A DNA stretch of 64,000 bases from Leucobacter aridicollis (GTDB lineage Bacteria > Actinomycetota > Actinomycetes > Actinomycetales > Microbacteriaceae): the NCBI RefSeq assembly GCF_013409595.1, contig NZ_JACCBD010000001.1, positions 2,790,001-2,854,000 of the forward strand, read 5' to 3'. Below the pieces are notes generated by a model. The model did not search any database, had not been told where the DNA came from, and saw only the letters and a program-made list of their open reading frames with translations. This document shows positions 48,739-59,391 of this stretch, piece after piece. The position numbers and the translations under genes are program-made. The stretch's first letter is position 1; each line of letters starts with the position of its first letter.

Positions 48739-48750
48739 CCCACAGGAACA

Positions 48751-48796
48751 CGAAGCCGGCCTGGTCGAGAGAACTCTCTCGACCAGGCCGGCTTCG
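48751..48796. terminator. Perfect 21-bp terminator between GlsB gene and tRNA-Lys
   Basis: Arms 48751-48771 and 48776-48796 are perfectly complementary over 21 bp with the loop AACT, followed by TTTGCGTT. It lies between the convergent GlsB-type gene and tRNA and can end both transcripts. Confidence 0.85.
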
Positions 48797-48805
48797 TTTG
48801 CGTTG

Positions 48806-48877
48806 TGCCCCCAGTAGGGATCGAACCTACGACCTGCGGATTAAAAGTCCGTAGCTCTGCCGCTGAGCTATAGGGGC
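48806..48877 (-). tRNA. tRNA-Lys (anticodon TTT)
   Basis: A 72-nt cloverleaf: acceptor GCCCCTA pairs with TGGGGGC (one G-T pair), D-arm around AGCTCAGCGGCAGAGCT, anticodon loop CTTTTAA giving anticodon TTT at 48843-48845, and T-arm with GGTTCGATCCC. The discriminator is A; no CCA is encoded. It marks the change from chromosome-like to element-like genes. Confidence 0.95.
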
Positions 48878-49903: not shown

Positions 49904-50914
49904 ATGAGCAACGAAGCAATTCACTGGGCCTGGAAACAGGAGACTGGGTCACCCGTCACAAAGCTCATCCTCCACGTGCTCGCAGACCTCGCAGATGAGA
50001 ACCACTCATGCTTCCCTTCGATCGAGCACATTGTCGCGAAGGTCGAAGCTAGCGAGAAGACTGTTCGACGCAAGCTTGAGGATCTGGAGGCTGCTCATCT
50101 GATCCGCAAGGAACGGCGGTATGTCCAGTTCGGGCAACGGCTCACGGACCGCTACTACTTGGATGTTGAGGGTCAGGTCTCGGCGATCGCTGCATTAGCG
50201 GTCAAATTGACCGGTAATGGTGACATCGAGGAGAAACCCCAGGTCAGCGCAGTAGAGGTCAATTTGACCGGTAATGGTTCTACTGCCGCTTCATTAGCGG
50301 TCAACTGTGACCGCTACACAAGGACCCCTCATGAGATAAGAGATAAATCTCTTATCATCGAGGATCCTGCGGATCCCGAGGCTGCGCCGCGACAAATTCA
50401 AAATGATCTGGAGTCCAGGAGTGGTGATCTGGAGTCCGCCAAGGACTCCAGTCCCGCCCACGGAGGCTCCGAGATTGAACAGGAACTGCGGGAGATTCAT
50501 CCGACGCTCACTGTCGCGGCCGTCACGGCTCGGCTCAAGGTCGCGAAGGCCGAGGACGTCGACCTACTCAACGCGGCAAGAGTGATCCTTGGACGTGCGA
50601 CCCGAACGGTCTCGGCACCTGCCGCGTTCGTTGCTGCGGCGATCGACAGGACACCTGACGCGTGGCGGCCGCAGCTTCCAGGGTTTGAACCTGGTGATCT
50701 CGATGGGCCGCTAACCTCGCAATTTGACGAGCTGCGAGCACGCGAACGCACCGAGACTGTCTCGTGCAGCCTTGGCGAGCACGACTGGGGGGATGAGTGG
50801 CTTGCCGAGACCGACCGCGGCTACTGCGTCCGTCCCCGCTGCAACACGGCCCGCCGCTCAGTCGACCCGGCATATGCGGAGCTCGAAGCGCGCCTGTTCG
50901 AAGGGAGTCTCTGA
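49904..50914 (+). CDS. Replication-type helix-turn-helix protein (putative initiator)
   Basis: A 336-aa protein with an N-terminal winged-helix (MSNEAIHWAWKQETGSPVTKL, then CFPSIEHIVAKVEASEKTVRRKLEDLEAAHLIRKERRY), the HTH_36-type domain common in phage and plasmid replication proteins. The middle is poorly conserved and is encoded by DNA with repeated palindromes that look like iterons. The C-terminus has Cys/His (CSLGEHDWGD, YCVRPRCN) that could bind zinc. The next gene overlaps its stop by one base. The initiator role is inferred from fold and repeats. Confidence 0.68.
   Translation: MSNEAIHWAWKQETGSPVTKLILHVLADLADENHSCFPSIEHIVAKVEASEKTVRRKLEDLEAAHLIRKERRYVQFGQRLTDRYYLDVEGQVSAIAALAVKLTGNGDIEEKPQVSAVEVNLTGNGSTAASLAVNCDRYTRTPHEIRDKSLIIEDPADPEAAPRQIQNDLESRSGDLESAKDSSPAHGGSEIEQELREIHPTLTVAAVTARLKVAKAEDVDLLNAARVILGRATRTVSAPAAFVAAAIDRTPDAWRPQLPGFEPGDLDGPLTSQFDELRARERTETVSCSLGEHDWGDEWLAETDRGYCVRPRCNTARRSVDPAYAELEARLFEGSL
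50193..50315. repeat. Iteron-like palindromic repeats inside the putative rep gene
   Basis: GGTCAAATTGACC (50200-50212), GGTCAATTTGACC (50257-50269) and AGCGGTCA-ACTG-TGACCGCT (50296-50315) are three related palindromes. CATTAGCGGTCAA is repeated exactly in units 1 and 3, and TTGACCGGTAATGGT is nearly or fully shared by units 1 and 2. Iterons within a rep gene commonly mark a replication origin. Confidence 0.65.
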
Positions 50915-51255
50915 TGGGCAGGATCATCAAACGCGAAATTGTCGGATTCACGTGTGAACTCCGCAGCTGCGGCCAGACCGTCCGCACTCACCTCGGCTAT
51001 CCAGCGAACGGCACCTGGCACGACCAGCTCGAAGAACTCGAGCGACTGATTTCGCTCGGTTGGGGAATGGTGCTCCACTCCCAGCTCCGGACGTACTGCC
51101 CAGAACATATCGAGCGAGTCTGGGACTGCACCTGCCGGACACACCCAACCAGGGCAAGCCTCTGCACTTCCCACAACACCGAGTCCGCCAGCCTCGTCTG
51201 GACGGCACACGACACCCCTCAGCAGGTAAAAGAATTCAGGAAGGTTCTCTCATGA
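50914..51255 (+). CDS. Hypothetical Cys-rich protein
   Basis: A 113-aa soluble protein with Cys pairs (Cys14 and Cys19 in FTCELRSCG; later YCPEHIERVWDCTC), suggesting a zinc-binding fold. Its ATG overlaps the stop of the putative rep gene and its TGA overlaps the ParB-like start, so the three genes are made together. No family is recognised. Confidence 0.68.
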   Translation: MGRIIKREIVGFTCELRSCGQTVRTHLGYPANGTWHDQLEELERLISLGWGMVLHSQLRTYCPEHIERVWDCTCRTHPTRASLCTSHNTESASLVWTAHDTPQQVKEFRKVLS

Positions 51256-52244
51256 ACGACGGCATCATCCAGACCCCGATCCAGCAAGATTGGAAGCTCG
51301 TTCGCGTCGAGGACGTGATCGTCAAGGAGCGACTTCGCGACTACGACGAGGACCACATCAACCGCATTCGTCGTTCCTTCAGGGAGCTCGGTGGCCAGCT
51401 TCAACTGCAGCCGATCGTGCTCGATGAGCGAATGATCCTCATCGACGGTGCACATCGTCTCGAGGCCGCTTCACGCGAGGGTTGGGAGTTCATCTCCGCA
51501 CTCATTTGGACCGGCGTCACTGAGGAAGACCGCCCCATCCTCGAAGCCGAAGCAAACATCGTCCGCAAGGACTTCAGCCCGGTCGAGCTCGAACGCATCT
51601 GGAAAGAGCACTACGAACCCGCAACACGAGCGAAGGCGCGGAAAACTCAAGTCAAAAATCTCCGCCGAGGTGACGATTTCCCCGTTACCGGTAATACCGG
51701 TAACGGGGAAATCGTGGCAGTTTCGAAGGTGGCGCGTGAGACTGTAGGCCGGGATATCGACTGGTTGAACAAGGTCACCGATGTGCGTGCCCTGGCTGAA
51801 TCGACCACTGCGCCGGTCGAGCTGAGGGCTGCGGCTGAGCGCGGCATCGAGAAGCTCTCGAAGCCTGGCGCGAAGGTCGACCCGGTACACAAGGAGCTCC
51901 TAAGACTCCAGGACGCCTTCAGCAAGAAAGGCCAGGCCCCAACGGAGCGGCGCGCGGAGGCGCTGGAGAAGACGCTCGACAAGCAAGTCACCGAATCGAC
52001 CCTCCTCGCAGAGAAGTACAGCGGCGAACTCGGATCCGACCTCGTGGAAGCAGCTGGTGTCGTGCCCGCCGGCGGTGAGAGTGTACGCGCAATCCGCGTC
52101 GCCCTCACCCACGCACTCGCAGGCGCGATCATCGTGGAGTGCCGGACGTCGGAGAACCCGGCGGCAGCGCTGCGACCCATTGGGCAGGAAGTCGTTGACC
52201 TCCTCAACATGCTCACAACGAAGCAACTCGGGTTGGAGGCGTGA
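51252..52244 (+). CDS. ParB-like nuclease/partition-domain protein
   Basis: A 330-aa protein with an N-terminal ParB/sulfiredoxin-type domain: VEDVIVKERLRDYDEDHINRIRRSF, QPIVLDERMILIDGAHRLEAASREGW. The IDGAHRLEAA motif is the phage/plasmid variant of the ParB GERRxxA box. The middle (about residues 140-155) is encoded by a perfect 43-bp palindrome; the C-terminal half is helical. No ParA is adjacent. Partition, replication control or gene regulation on the element are all possible. Confidence 0.8.
   Translation: MNDGIIQTPIQQDWKLVRVEDVIVKERLRDYDEDHINRIRRSFRELGGQLQLQPIVLDERMILIDGAHRLEAASREGWEFISALIWTGVTEEDRPILEAEANIVRKDFSPVELERIWKEHYEPATRAKARKTQVKNLRRGDDFPVTGNTGNGEIVAVSKVARETVGRDIDWLNKVTDVRALAESTTAPVELRAAAERGIEKLSKPGAKVDPVHKELLRLQDAFSKKGQAPTERRAEALEKTLDKQVTESTLLAEKYSGELGSDLVEAAGVVPAGGESVRAIRVALTHALAGAIIVECRTSENPAAALRPIGQEVVDLLNMLTTKQLGLEA
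51673..51715. repeat. Perfect 43-bp palindrome inside the ParB-like gene
   Basis: The 21-bp arm 51673-51693 and its exact complement 51695-51715 flank a single central A at 51694. The core is TTACCGGTA-A-TACCGGTAA. It is in frame within the coding sequence and is the longest perfect dyad I found in the window. Confidence 0.95.
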
Positions 52245-52245
52245 A

Positions 52246-53016
52246 ATGGGATCCAAGATTGAGCACTTCGACGTGTGGCGTCAGCGCATGGCGTTCACCG
52301 CTCTCGCCGACAGCCCCGATTTTCTGAATACGGCTGAGGGCGCGGCACTCATCGAACAGATCCGGCACCGCAGCGCGAAAATGATCGTGTGGGAAGCCCG
52401 CGAGATGGACTTTGTTCTCGAAGCAGACGACGTGGTGAACGGTGCGATCCTCCTCCTCACCGAGCAGGACGGACGCATCTCCCGCTACATCGCGTCCGCC
52501 GACGGAGAGCCGTGGGGGTATTTCTACACCTGCCTCAAGGGTTGGGCGCGCCAGCAGTGGGGACACCGGGGAAGCTCCCTCGAGGCTCTCGAAGACGTCG
52601 TTCCAACGGGGGGCAAGCCGGAGGACGATCTGACACCGCTTGAAGAGGTCGTGCGTCTCACGTTTGAGACGCTGTCACCCCATACTCCTGAGCGGCTGCA
52701 CCCGGAGCTTCTGGAGCTGTTGCGGTGGCTCGCGGCGAACCCGCCGCAGCGGCTCTCTTACGAGACCGGTGACAAGGTTGCGGCGCACAGGTTCGCGCCA
52801 GCGTTCTCGATCATGCAGGTCACGGCCGTGATGAATATCGCGTGGGGTGGCAGGCCCCGCCAGGCGGACACGAGCCTGTTTGGGCAGTACTTGCTCGATG
52901 ATTTCTTCCGCCCTTCAGAATCGCCCACGCATGCTCGGGCGCTCACATATTTCAAGAAGCAGATGCGTGCGGGCGATGGCGGCTCGCGCATGCTCACAGA
53001 TTGGCCAGCACGATGA
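52246..53016 (+). CDS. Hypothetical protein with sigma-factor region 2-like segment
   Basis: A 256-aa protein. The segment FVLEADDVVNGAILLL followed by WGYFYTCLKGWARQQW and SSLEALEDV resembles region 2 of sigma70-type factors and the linker after it, but no region 4 helix-turn-helix is evident. GGAGG precedes ATG 52246. Its TGA overlaps the DUF2637 start. A sigma-like or anti-termination role is only a suggestion. Confidence 0.65.
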   Translation: MGSKIEHFDVWRQRMAFTALADSPDFLNTAEGAALIEQIRHRSAKMIVWEAREMDFVLEADDVVNGAILLLTEQDGRISRYIASADGEPWGYFYTCLKGWARQQWGHRGSSLEALEDVVPTGGKPEDDLTPLEEVVRLTFETLSPHTPERLHPELLELLRWLAANPPQRLSYETGDKVAAHRFAPAFSIMQVTAVMNIAWGGRPRQADTSLFGQYLLDDFFRPSESPTHARALTYFKKQMRAGDGGSRMLTDWPAR

Positions 53017-53801
53017 AGAACAAACCCACCCGCAATTGGCATCTCGTCCTCACGCTCGGGATCCCGCTCACCATCGTCGGAGCTTCCGCAATGGCGATCT
53101 CCTACGCCACACTTATCGATGTCGCCCGCGTGAACGGGCTCCCACTCCCGGAACTCTTCCCCGTCCTCATCGACGTCGGCACGGTCGCGACCATGATCGC
53201 CGCCGCACAGTTCCGCCTCCGTGGCATCGACGGGCGCTGGCTCGCCTACGTCGCGTTCATCGCCCTGTCCGCGGTATCGATCGTCGCGAACGCGTCGCAT
53301 GCGTGGCGTGCAGCAGACATGACGGTAACAACGCCGTGGGCGGCAGCGATCCTCGCAGCAACACCGCCGGCGGCGCTCCTCGCGATCACGCACCTGGTGA
53401 TGATGCTCATCCCGGACGAGAAAGAGCGCGCGAAGCTACAGGCGGTCCGCGAGAAGCAGGCCGAGGCTGAGGCCCGTCACCGCCAGTCGATCCAGCAGCC
53501 GGCCTCAGTTCCAGCAGCGGCCCCGGTTACGCCTGCGGCTGCAGTCGCTGCGGTCTCCGCTCCTGCGGCCCCGTTGCGGCTTGTAGAGCAGGACAAGCCT
53601 GCCGCAGCCGATCAGGCTGAGGTACGCGAGAAAGTCCTCGCCCACATCGCAGAGCACGGCGAAAGACCCACGGGTGCGATCGTTGGCGACTGGCTCGGCA
53701 AGAGCTACAAGACCGGTCAACGCTTCCTCCAGAAACTCGAGGAATCAGGCGAGCTGAACGCGGCACCCGTGTCCGCCGGTGTCTCGGGGATCATGGCTTG
53801 A
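53013..53801 (+). CDS. DUF2637 membrane protein with C-terminal winged helix
   Basis: A 262-aa protein. Residues about 10-130 hold four helices of the DUF2637 type (LVLTLGIPLTIVGASAMAISYATL, LFPVLIDVGTVATMIAAAQ and following), well known on actinobacterial plasmids and integrative elements, where related proteins assist plasmid spread. A Pro/Ala linker leads to a C-terminal winged-helix region (AEVREKVLAHIAEHGERPTGAIVGDWLGKSYKTGQRFLQKL). This supports the mobile-element reading. Confidence 0.8.
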   Translation: MKNKPTRNWHLVLTLGIPLTIVGASAMAISYATLIDVARVNGLPLPELFPVLIDVGTVATMIAAAQFRLRGIDGRWLAYVAFIALSAVSIVANASHAWRAADMTVTTPWAAAILAATPPAALLAITHLVMMLIPDEKERAKLQAVREKQAEAEARHRQSIQQPASVPAAAPVTPAAAVAAVSAPAAPLRLVEQDKPAAADQAEVREKVLAHIAEHGERPTGAIVGDWLGKSYKTGQRFLQKLEESGELNAAPVSAGVSGIMA

Positions 53802-56151: not shown

Positions 56152-59100
56152 TTGCAACCACAACCAGCACTTAACCGGCGCCAGCGCCGCAGATTGGGGA
56201 AACCAGTCGCGGTGCTCCTCGCGGGCCTCGTGCTCGCGAGCAGCGTCGGAACGATCGACGTGTTCCAGCAGCCGACCGCAGCGCACGCTATCTCCGAAGG
56301 CGCCGGCATCAACACGATGGGCGGCTTCATCGGCGGCTTCCAGCACTCCAACGGCCAGATCGTGTTCTGCGTCGAGATGGGAATGCCCCCGCAGCTGGGC
56401 ATCAACCCAGCACTCGGCGCAACAGCAACGTTGCCGGCCTACACGGCAACCGAGTTCCACTCCGGCGTCGGGAACTGGACCAACATTCAGGCACCAGCTC
56501 TTTCCGGGAACGGGCTGAAGACGATGAACAAGGTCATGTCGAAGTACGGGCAGACCGCGAACGCGAACCAGGCCGCCGCGGTCCAGATCGCGATCTGGGA
56601 GATCCGGGCCGCAGGAGCCAACGCTTCGTATCAGAGCATGCTCTCTGCGATGAAGGGCGCAGTTGATCCATCGATCGTCTCGAACGCGATGGCGATGATC
56701 AAGGAGGCCCAGGCAAGCGACGCAGCAGAGAACGCCCCAGGCGACCCCCGCATCTTCGGCACTGGCTCGTACAAGGGCCATGTCGTCGTCGACCCAGGGA
56801 CCACCGAGCTGACGATCACGAACGGCATCTTTGATGCGACGGGGTCAAACAAGATCACCTTCCCCGGCGGCACGAAAGGCGTTCAAACTGTCGCCTGGAC
56901 CGGGCAAGCACCGTATGACGACAAGTCATGGGGCCGCTACTACCGGGTCACCGTCAACGGCAAATACCAGTACCAGTCCAGCCCCGCAGAAGTGTCCTTC
57001 GGACACCCCGGAGGATACGGGCAGGGCATCGCAGCAGGCACCGCGAGCAAGCCCGTCACTGGCAACTACAAGGCCGTCGGTGTTGACCCCGACACGCTCT
57101 GGTCGCCCGTCTTGACGACCGAGACCCCGTCCAAGTTCGTCAAGCGAGGAGAATCGTTCAGCGACACCATCACCTTCGGCATCGCTGAAGGGTCAAACCC
57201 GTGGCGTCAATCGTTGACTTCAGCTGGCGAGTCACGGTTTGCGCCGATCAAGGCTGAGGGCACTCTCTATGGTCCCTTCCTTCAGGATCCGGCTCTCAAC
57301 CCGTCTGCGACACCGCCGAAGGGTGCACCCGTGGCGGCGACTGCATCAGTCACTACTGATTCGAAGAAGGGCCCCGGCACCTACACCGTCGAGAAGATCG
57401 GGAAATCTGAAGAGGCCGGCTACTACTCCTGGGTCTGGAAGATCCAGGGTAGCGACCAGCTTGCTTCCGTAGTTTCGCCTCCGAACGGCATCGACGGTTC
57501 CCTACCGAAGAACTATTTCTTCACGGATGGTTTCGGACAGGCCACTGAGGGCCAGCTGACTCCGACAGAGCTGCGCTGGTCGACGAAGGTCGCAAAGAAG
57601 CAGGTCTCGATCGGCGGGAAGGTCACCGACGATGTAGACGTGACGCTGCAGAACGGCGGCTGGCTCCAGAACGCTGAGGGCAACCGCACTCCGTTCACCC
57701 TCCGTGGAACGGTCTACCTTGCCGACAAGAAGCCCGTGCAGCAGCCCGTCGCGCCTGAAGGCGCTCAGGTGCTCACCACGACGAAGCAGACCGTTGACAG
57801 TGTCGCGAAGTTCACGTCGAAGGACATTAAGGTTCCGCTGAGCACGAAGGCGAAGTACGCCACCGTCCAGTGGTGCCTGGTAGATGAAGACCAGACCGAC
57901 GATGCCAAGGGCAAGGCTGAGGAGTGGTGCGACGACTACGGCGTGCCCTCTGAGACGTTCAAGATCGTCGGCCCCGAGGTCGAAACTCAGGCCATCGAGA
58001 AGGGCTCCGTCGCGGGCACCATCCACGACGTCGCAACCGTCACCGGTGGACTCCCTGAGAACGCGAAGACCGAGATCGAGTTCGAACTGTTCCTGAAGCC
58101 CGAGGCCGGCCAGCCCAAGTACGACGAGAACTGGAAGCCGATCCTTGACGAGAACGGCGAGACCGTGCTCTGGGCAGAGGACGAGGTCCAGGATCCCGCC
58201 GCAGTGTGTGAGGCGCAGCCGGTCGCGAAGACCGATCGCGTCGAGGTCACGAAGCTCGGCGAAGTGAAGTCCCCTGACGTGTTCACCCACTCAACCGGTA
58301 CCGGTTACTGGGTCGAGCGTACGATCATCACGCCTGAGGATCCGAAGGACGGTGAAGAGTTTGAGTACTCGCGCGGCCGCTGCGGCATCCCGAACGAGAC
58401 GACCGTGATCGAGGGGCCTGAGGTAGAGACGCAGGCGATCGAGAAGGGCGAAGTCGCGGGCACCATCCACGACGTCGCAACCGTCACCGGCACCCTCCCG
58501 AACGCGTCAAAGACTGAAGTCGAGTTCGAACTGTTCCTGAAGCCAGAAGCCGGCCAGCCCAAGTACGACGAGAACTGGGAAGCAATCGTCGACGACAACG
58601 GGAAGGTTGTGCTGTGGACTGAGGAAGAGATCCAGGACCCAGAAGCGGTGTGCGAAGCGCAGCCGGTCGCGAAGACCGACCGCGTCGAGGTCACCGAGCT
58701 TGGTGAAGTGAAGTCACCGGACGTACTCACGCACTCTGCAGGCATAAGCTACTGGGTCGAGTCCACGATCATCACCCCGAACGATCCTGAGGACGGCGAA
58801 GAGTACGAGTACTCGCGCGGCCGCTGCGGCATCCCGAACGAGACCACAGTGATCGAGGAGCCCAAGGTACGCACCGAGGGCAAGACCGTCACCGTTGGCG
58901 ACGAGATCTGGGACACCGCGTTCACGAGCGAGCACGGCGACCTGTCGGAGCTCACGGGTGTCGAGTACAAGGTCACGTTCAAGGCCTACACGCGCGAGGA
59001 CAGCAAGGACATGGTCTGCTCCCCGGAGAACGAGATCAAGGACTTCGAGGACAAGACCGGTGTTGTCGTGTCCGAGCCTGGCAAGTACGAGTCGAACAAG

Positions 59101-59391
59101 GTGAAGACAACCGAGAAGCACATCGGTCTCGGCGGCTACCAGGAGACCTTGATCCGTGTGGAGAAGGGTACTGAGATTGAGGTCGCTGTCGGCAAGTGTG
59201 GTGAACCGTCAGAGAACCTCGAGGTGCGTGAGAAGCCTGTCGTCCCTGGTCCACTCGCTACGACCGGCGGTAACGTCGCTCTCCTCGCCGGCCTCGGCGG
59301 CGGTGTGCTCCTCCTGGGCGCAGCGGCAGTACTCGCGGCGAAGCGGCGCGGCCGCGCTGCAGGCGCAGAGGAGGTGATCGCTACAAACTAA
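56152..59391 (+). CDS. Sortase-anchored surface adhesin with predicted thioester domain
   Basis: A 1079-aa cell-wall protein. A basic start and signal peptide (about 1-46, ending in AHA) lead into a domain with Cys73 (VFCVEMG) and Gln145 (VQIAIWEIR), the pattern of thioester adhesin domains, in which a Cys-Gln bond can capture host amines covalently. After a long middle region come two tandem 148-residue repeats (607-754 and 755-902) and a degenerate third unit. The C-terminus has LATTG (1035-1039), a hydrophobic segment and KRRGR, a class-E-type sortase signal. TTG 56152 is the first plausible start. No sortase is in the window. Confidence 0.85.
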   Translation: MQPQPALNRRQRRRLGKPVAVLLAGLVLASSVGTIDVFQQPTAAHAISEGAGINTMGGFIGGFQHSNGQIVFCVEMGMPPQLGINPALGATATLPAYTATEFHSGVGNWTNIQAPALSGNGLKTMNKVMSKYGQTANANQAAAVQIAIWEIRAAGANASYQSMLSAMKGAVDPSIVSNAMAMIKEAQASDAAENAPGDPRIFGTGSYKGHVVVDPGTTELTITNGIFDATGSNKITFPGGTKGVQTVAWTGQAPYDDKSWGRYYRVTVNGKYQYQSSPAEVSFGHPGGYGQGIAAGTASKPVTGNYKAVGVDPDTLWSPVLTTETPSKFVKRGESFSDTITFGIAEGSNPWRQSLTSAGESRFAPIKAEGTLYGPFLQDPALNPSATPPKGAPVAATASVTTDSKKGPGTYTVEKIGKSEEAGYYSWVWKIQGSDQLASVVSPPNGIDGSLPKNYFFTDGFGQATEGQLTPTELRWSTKVAKKQVSIGGKVTDDVDVTLQNGGWLQNAEGNRTPFTLRGTVYLADKKPVQQPVAPEGAQVLTTTKQTVDSVAKFTSKDIKVPLSTKAKYATVQWCLVDEDQTDDAKGKAEEWCDDYGVPSETFKIVGPEVETQAIEKGSVAGTIHDVATVTGGLPENAKTEIEFELFLKPEAGQPKYDENWKPILDENGETVLWAEDEVQDPAAVCEAQPVAKTDRVEVTKLGEVKSPDVFTHSTGTGYWVERTIITPEDPKDGEEFEYSRGRCGIPNETTVIEGPEVETQAIEKGEVAGTIHDVATVTGTLPNASKTEVEFELFLKPEAGQPKYDENWEAIVDDNGKVVLWTEEEIQDPEAVCEAQPVAKTDRVEVTELGEVKSPDVLTHSAGISYWVESTIITPNDPEDGEEYEYSRGRCGIPNETTVIEEPKVRTEGKTVTVGDEIWDTAFTSEHGDLSELTGVEYKVTFKAYTREDSKDMVCSPENEIKDFEDKTGVVVSEPGKYESNKVKTTEKHIGLGGYQETLIRVEKGTEIEVAVGKCGEPSENLEVREKPVVPGPLATTGGNVALLAGLGGGVLLLGAAAVLAAKRRGRAAGAEEVIATN
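57970..58857 (+). repeat. Two tandem 444-bp repeats in the adhesin gene
   Basis: 57970-58413 and 58414-58857 are each exactly 444 bp (148 codons) and encode near-identical units starting GPEVETQAIEKG and ending CGIPNETTVIE. The equal length points to tandem duplication, and the copy number could vary between strains. Confidence 0.9.

Follow-up and report, generated by a model that had tools for sequence, protein, structure and literature searches.

A ParB-like gene of Leucobacter aridicollis carries, inside its own coding sequence, a perfect 43-bp dyad that is in all likelihood the specific DNA-binding site of the protein that the same gene encodes. Judging from comparisons among related genes, this protein very probably recognizes the gene that encodes it: the symmetry of the dyad is kept in distant relatives while its letters change on both arms, and in the larger clade of relatives these letters covary with residues of the helix-turn-helix (HTH) encoded just downstream. 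The gene lies in a 64,000-nucleotide stretch of DNA, the whole of which we call the window, in a locus that we read as an integrated conjugative element from the content of the neighboring genes. Features discussed below are collected in Table 1.

Table 1. Features of the ParB-like gene, its dyad and the neighboring genes, in window coordinates
Feature	Position	Strand	Details
Gene with an HTH_36 domain and its own internal inverted repeats	49904..50914	+	Pfam HTH_36, 1.4e-09
Repeat arm in the HTH_36 gene, containing ACCGGTAATG	50193..50219	.	Pairs with 50250-50276, 85% complementary
Second repeat arm in the HTH_36 gene, also containing ACCGGTAATG	50250..50276	.	
ParB-like gene, 330 aa: N domain of ParB/sulfiredoxin fold, disordered linker, HTH, helical C-terminal part	51252..52244	+	
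Codons 1-120, ParB/sulfiredoxin-fold domain	51252..51611	+	AlphaFold2 model, Foldseek, profile match to solved ParB chains
Codons 141-155, containing the dyad and specifying the linker peptide DDFPVTGNTGNGEIV	51672..51716	+	Residues 143-153 with pLDDT <50
Candidate operator or parS-like site of the ParB-like protein	51673..51715	.	43-bp odd-centred perfect dyad
Codons 157-182, HTH; helix 169-182 is the predicted recognition helix	51720..51797	+	Secondary structure of the model
Membrane protein of a family that includes a DUF2637 protein; recurrent neighbor of ParB-like genes	53013..53801	+	

The dyad and the protein encoded around it

In the window sequence, the dyad consists of two 21-bp arms that are 100% complementary and flank a single spacer base (A, 51694), the centre, which cannot pair. 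It reaches from the middle base of codon 141 to the middle base of codon 155, confirming the sequence-only reading, which had reported a palindrome within the ParB-like reading frame that encodes residues 141-155. That reading had also called such dyads very rare by chance, and simple arithmetic agrees: with this spacing and even base use, about 1.5e-8 (64000/4^21) would be expected in 64 kb. Its remark that dyads of this length tend to be unstable was overstated, as palindrome instability is known for much longer palindromes. A search of the 3.57-Mb genome with the 19-base core, ACCGGTAAYACCGGTRAYG, allowing at most two mismatches, returned a single place, the dyad itself.

When the window was scanned for perfect arms of at least 11 bp with spacers of at most 12, the dyad ranked second. 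The longest perfect dyad of the window (48750-48797, 23-bp arms, 2-nt spacer) adjoins a tRNA-Lys gene (48805-48877) and is perhaps a terminator. The window also holds a 28-bp inverted repeat at 1871-1928 (93% complementary, 2-nt spacer).

The 330-aa reading frame opens with an ATG at 51252, and its nearest named homologs are Leucobacter proteins titled ParB N-terminal domain-containing protein or ParB-like nuclease family protein. An AlphaFold2 model of the window protein (48 sequences, mean pLDDT 81.9, pTM 0.51) comprises an N-terminal alpha/beta domain, a long helix up to residue 141, a segment with pLDDT <50 (residues 143-153), two helices that form an HTH (157-164 and 169-182), and more helices after these. 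The best Foldseek matches to the model were pNOB8 ParB, ParB, Noc and KorB, with significant E-values; likeness over the whole fold was weak (TM ~0.2-0.4, rmsd ~9-18), presumably because the domain arrangement differs. Profile matches to solved ParB/Noc chains together with Foldseek identified the N domain as a ParB/sulfiredoxin fold. Pfam ParB_N did not match the window protein at E 0.01, and parB_part matched it weakly, under the cut-off; PF02195 is carried by some relatives. The order of a ParB-type domain, a low-confidence segment and an HTH indicates that the dyad encodes the interdomain linker. Its codons thus serve two ends, as the sequence-only reading had pointed out in speaking of a double constraint. 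The constraint is real and probably mild, the peptide being the least-ordered inner part of the model and differing between relatives.

Conservation of the symmetry and covariation with the HTH

Relatives were sampled from best-scoring lists (the best 30 loci, the best 80 of 210 with profile A2, and the best 30 plus the best 30) that covered genus, family and named genome records. These gave 186 loci. Sixteen were left out (two pattern-search copies, 12 neighborhood stretches and two weak viral loci), leaving 170 genes and, judged by the first 900 nt of the frame, 136 unique ones, among which close relatives remain and one organism may be present twice. The 136 genes split into clade A, 18 genes close to the window protein, and clade B, 118 distant ones at about 23-32% identity among the matches listed. 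By record label, 66 are from Actinomycetota, one is from a metagenome-assembled genome labelled Armatimonadota and 69 carry no phylum. A scan of genome contigs with the query P0001 alone retrieved no relatives, and profile A2 retrieved 210. Viral contigs gave no match to P0001 and two weak short matches to A2, which were kept out of the counts; phage and plasmid records searched with P0001 gave one weak phage match and no plasmid.

The ParB/sulfiredoxin fold was found both in the window model and in a model of a clade B protein (L161, mean pLDDT 88.4). An HTH follows the N domain in both (helices 148-160 and 165-179 in L161), and the C-terminal part is helical in both. Whole-protein pattern searches for CTP-binding motifs, of which ENxxR is one, found [AE]NxxR in 45 of 48 clade A proteins and 6 of 45 clade B proteins, and D/E..NxxHK in 39 of 45 clade B proteins. 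From these sequences, the nucleotide-binding motifs appear to be retained in part only. One fixed linker peptide was rejected as the conserved entity, since the pattern V..N[ST].N occurs in just 27 of 48 clade A proteins.

We searched codons 80-165 of each matched frame for odd-centred dyads, taking the best of 12 pairs. All 12 pairs matched in 84 of the 136 sampled genes, 11 in 35, 10 in 9, 9 in 2 and 8 in 6. At least 10 of 12 pairs were thus present within this fixed stretch in 128 genes (15 of 18 in clade A and 113 of 118 in clade B). When the eight misses were rechecked, L172 proved to have a perfect linker dyad just outside the fixed stretch, bringing the total to 129 of 136 genes with a linker dyad of at least 10/12, 85 of them perfect. 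The dyads of L011 (9/12) and L056 (8/12) look degraded, L029 has a short frame, and L008, L010, L141 and L145 have no linker dyad.

The position of the dyad relative to the reading frame is also kept. In clade A, with the misses counted, all 18 genes have the centre at the second position of a codon; in clade B, 114 of 118 genes (115 with L172) have it at the third. The letters are far from fixed: the left half-site takes 46 different forms among 113 clade B genes and 14 among 15 clade A genes, so the two arms change in step. In clade B, the outer letters of the half-site, CGGT, and the A-rich centre vary little. An alignment of homologous genes, as the sequence-only reading had proposed, therefore finds the dyad kept while its letters vary on both arms.

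To control for the coding sequence, synonymous codons were permuted inside each gene. Of the 2720 shuffles, 17 reached 12/12 with the centre kept in place, compared with 84 of the 136 real genes; when the best place in the stretch was taken, 11 did so. The looser class of at least 10/12 at the same centre was found in 624 of 2720 shuffles; it often survives shuffling because the peptide itself preserves some of the symmetry, so it is the perfect dyads that carry the information. Perfect odd-centred 12/12 dyads were also concentrated at the site: across 59 loci of at least 9 kb (641,779 bases), 35 lay there and 3 elsewhere, and the same loci held no perfect even-centred 12/12 dyad. In the 58 dyad-bearing loci of at least 9 kb, we found no second similar dyad (at most 6 mismatches of 25), and extra half-sites numbered 8, no excess over the 10 in shuffled sequence.

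Covariation between dyad and protein was examined in 113 of the 118 clade B genes, those with a dyad of at least 10/12 centred on codon position 3; this set consists of dyad-bearing genes, so genes without one could not count against coevolution. The effective number of genes is about 60 at 90% identity. Half-site positions are counted from the centre, and residues were compared outside codons 136-148 and numbered as in the L031 protein. Residue 152 is D or E in 49 of 49 genes with C at position 6. With G at that position it is R in 16 of 21 and K in 4 of 21; with T it is K in 31 of 40, and with A it is Q in 3 of 3. Residue 168 is K or R in 36 of 39 genes with G at position 4 and T in 64 of 69 with C. 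Residue 169 follows suit at position 2: with G there it is R or M in 12 of 13 genes, and with A it is T or S in all 97. A sequence-weighted mutual-information scan of 266 residues ranked an HTH residue (152-176) first for positions 2, 3, 4, 6 and 7, and a residue outside the HTH first for positions 1, 5, 8 and 9.

Shared ancestry was addressed with a quick tree built without residues 128-182, on which independent pairs were compared by a sign test. The strongest agreement was between position 6 and residue 152 (D/E with C), with all 12 pairs in accord (p 0.0005); position 4 and residue 168 agreed in about 6 of 7 (median p 0.03), and position 2 and residue 169 in 5.5 of 6 (median p 0.03). Two further comparisons offered too few pairs: position 3 with residue 162 (4 of 5, p 0.125), and G or T at position 6 with R or K at residue 152 (4.2 of 5, p 0.125). 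No pair in these comparisons ran in the opposite direction. When 295-297 residues were scanned with the same control for the tree, the top residues were 152 (positions 6 and 7), 168 (position 4), 172 (position 3) and 169 (position 2), so that the top residue lay inside the HTH at all five half-site positions tested; these five were picked after the first scan, and four of the five tests rest on 5-10 pairs. Residue letters were grouped beforehand by their association with the base, alike for all residues.

The clade B counterpart of window helix 169-182 holds the coevolving residues 168, 169 and 172 (L161 166, 167 and 170), which are predicted to be residues 2, 3 and 6 of the recognition helix, and residue 152 (L161 150) lies near the start of the first HTH helix. 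The pairings D/E-C, R-G and Q-A are classical contacts between side chains and bases. Covariation of this kind is the pattern expected if the encoded HTH touches the dyad in its own gene, and it makes physical binding of the protein to the dyad very likely. We extend the coevolution by homology to clade A, the clade of the window protein, in which 18 genes are too few for the test.

These data suggest a simple arrangement. A dimer of the ParB-like protein would bind the dyad through its two HTH domains, with the inner half-site letters read, in clade B, by a few changeable HTH residues. The site would occupy codons for the disordered segment that links the nucleotide-binding-fold domain to the HTH and that appears to tolerate many different peptides. 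Lying in the linker codons of its reader, it would be inherited with that reader as one piece. By analogy with ParB, Noc and KorB, the site probably also serves to load a sliding clamp, a step of which we are distinctly less sure than of binding itself.

The same genome carries a second, distant clade B gene (L161, C1:637876-638946) with its own, different linker dyad, as well as sequences that match the chromosomal parS consensus perfectly or nearly so; these systems thus have separate sites. Outside the sampled genes, we compared 13 ParB-like genes from 12 plasmid and phage records, picked after the pattern was known and with near-identical records left out, and asked how often synonymous shuffles gave a dyad as long anywhere in the gene. 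Odd-centred linker dyads were found in a Microbacterium plasmid gene (13-bp arms, 3 of 300 shuffles as long) and a Streptomyces atratus plasmid gene (14-bp arms, 0 of 300). Even-centred perfect dyads lie just before the HTH in genes of Vibrio phage eugene 12A10 (L197; 12-bp arms, 0 of 300) and Pseudomonas phage phiAH14a (L199; 9-bp arms, 4 of 300). By this control, the other nine genes had no convincing linker dyad: those of a Curtobacterium plasmid and of Pelagibaca, two Mycobacterium phage genes (one of them cut), and those of two Lactobacillus phages that are alike and of three Staphylococcus phages. Pelagibaca has an imperfect 10/12 dyad in the linker region, and Staphylococcus phage EW has a linker dyad with 7-bp arms that was matched by 74 of 300 shuffles.

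Possible roles of the site in a conjugative element

Past the end of the window, the locus continues with an M23 peptidase gene and a gene for a VirD4/TraG-type coupling protein, and related stretches elsewhere encode an SCO6880-type protein, ArdC-type genes and primase-polymerase genes. The membrane protein downstream of the ParB-like gene had no Pfam match itself; its family has members in 10 of the 13 stretches compared, and the member in L041 matches DUF2637. A 1079-aa protein of the element (56152-59391) had no Pfam match, has family members in 4 of 13 stretches and, by eye, looks secreted and wall-anchored.

Upstream, the HTH_36 gene possibly encodes a replication initiator. The motif repeated in its two arms, ACCGGTAATG, occurs near the centre of the dyad too. 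We rejected it as a site common to the HTH_36 repeats and the dyad, the corresponding stretches of relatives being unalike by eye. Dyads with perfect arms of at least 9 bp lie about 0.8-1.05 kb upstream of the ParB-like gene in L003, L004, L005, L006, L009, L011, L014, L128 and L129, and are absent there in L010, L012, L013 and L015 in the same comparison. From their position, the dyads of the relatives would fall inside an HTH_36 gene, and these upstream repeats and dyads are possibly an origin embedded in an initiator gene.

Two roles are compatible with binding of the protein to its own gene. The chances seem about even that the dyad is a regulatory operator, from which the protein represses or organizes transcription of the element, either locally or through sliding, in the manner of KorB of RK2. 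The gene lies upstream of conjugation genes on the same strand, KorB is among the structural matches, and long-range silencing by KorB has been described in the accessible part of a published account (PMC11790492). Against this role, no second similar site was found in the 58 loci, nor in the genome with the 19-base core at up to two mismatches.

The sequence-only reading had offered the dyad as the binding site of the encoded protein and, in the same breath, as an intragenic centromere. The first part is strongly supported by a dyad that is kept and by letters that covary with the HTH. The second, in which a chromosomal or distant ParA would move the bound site, appears rather doubtful. It can draw on the ParB-type fold of the protein and on the internal parS sites published, as far as the accessible accounts go, for SCP1 parB1 and parB2 and SCP2 parT. 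However, every AAA_31 or CbiA match in the genome is more than 600 kb away from the element, and tblastn with three ParA proteins taken from this genome had no hit across 81 stretches and the window. With these two Pfam families and three ParA queries, no parA was found beside parB, so we did not adopt partition as an established function. Regulation or organization of the element is a role we can neither press nor discount, and ParA-driven partition is the harder of the two to credit; we therefore lean towards a clamp or regulator that acts on the element at a specific site, in preference to a classical centromere.

Readings that dispense with binding by the encoded protein fare much worse. 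A hairpin in the mRNA that controls translation or stability is very improbable. A dyad within a coding sequence is also transcribed into an mRNA hairpin, and among the few clade A mismatches at positions 1-12, G-U pairs are favored (G-U 5, A-C 2, other 6). In clade B, however, mismatches at positions 1-12 (87 distinct 31-mers) comprised 8 G-U, 21 A-C and 29 other, so wobble pairs are not favored there, and we rejected the RNA hairpin on this ground. An mRNA structure would not be expected to coevolve with HTH residues either, and Rfam had no match at the dyad, its sole match in the window being a tRNA.

Slightly less probable still is a single-strand origin, a nicking site or an oriT hairpin, also raised by the sequence-only reading. 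Long dyads do occur at such places, and the match to a coupling protein marks the element as conjugative. Yet the letters of this dyad go with HTH residues of the same gene and vary widely between elements, and the proposal thus found no support. Least probable of all is a neutral relic that template-switch mutation keeps perfect: imperfect dyads can be perfected by hairpin-templated repair, but this leaves unexplained the codon register, the persistence across clades at about 23-32% identity and the coevolution with the HTH.

Known systems and what the family may mean

We compared the proposed self-binding gene with known systems. Among the closest is ParT-parS of the Streptomyces coelicolor plasmid SCP2, in which ChIP-seq and BLI identified a specific 18-bp inverted repeat inside the parT coding sequence (PMC12260392). 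According to the accessible part of that account, it too is a conjugative actinobacterial element with a ParB-like protein and a site in the reader gene, but ParT has no CTPase-fold domain and works with a ParA, whereas our protein has a ParB/sulfiredoxin fold and no ParA was found nearby. A ParT-type, CTP-independent partition protein was ruled out here, as the CTPase fold is present in both models. On the linear plasmid SCP1, parB1 and parB2 each hold an internal parS (inverted repeats of 13 and 19 bp) and encode divergent CTPase domains (PMC13245405). The accessible text describes three sites around each SCP1 parAB operon, whereas the stretches searched here held one site and no parA was found; family-wide coevolution is not treated in that text.

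KorB of RK2 and BisD of a Pseudomonas integrative and conjugative element resemble our protein as ParB-type regulators of conjugative elements, and KorB is also a structural match. To our knowledge, no KorB or BisD site lies in the linker codons of its reader gene. In the accessible part of one account, BisD is named as a CTP-using regulator (PMC12704722). A role like that of KorB or BisD is as likely for our protein as partition.

In Bacillus subtilis, parS-359 is one of several chromosomal sites that share a consensus. It lies inside parB, as stated in the accessible part of a published report (PMC4442127). The repABC modules, with oriV inside repC and parS inside or near the operon (PMC9040568, in its accessible part), are alike in embedding cis sites in the module and differ in their shared parS consensus, the placement of the sites and the presence of a ParA homolog. 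For ParB and Noc, residues 173, 179, 184 and 201 decide which site is bound (PMC7383237, likewise from its accessible part). That switch is between two specificities, whereas here dozens of natural half-sites are linked to their readers. Given the published internal parS sites of SCP2, SCP1 and B. subtilis, a site embedded in the gene of its reader is not new. In the open-licence literature searched, we found no account of the linker placement in this family, the missing ParA neighbor or the position-by-position coevolution; what looks new is a coevolving, ParA-less family.

A wider reading, which we find evenly poised, is that self-addressing reader genes form a large class in mobile elements, apparently without ParA. 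The disordered linker would provide an evolvable slot for the target of the protein's own HTH, and reader and address would co-diversify, giving separate identities to elements that reside in the same cell. Such genes would extend beyond Actinobacteria to the even-centred cases in Vibrio and Pseudomonas phages, each gene reporting one recognition pair.

If this is true, target sites could be read straight from the gene sequence for a whole ParB-like family, which is rarely possible. The family would then supply dozens of naturally occurring reader-site pairs from which to study the HTH recognition code, and might yield orthogonal ParB-site pairs for DNA labelling. It raises the question of what role a ParB plays without a ParA, and it would provide a testable idea of how related conjugative elements in one cell avoid cross-talk.
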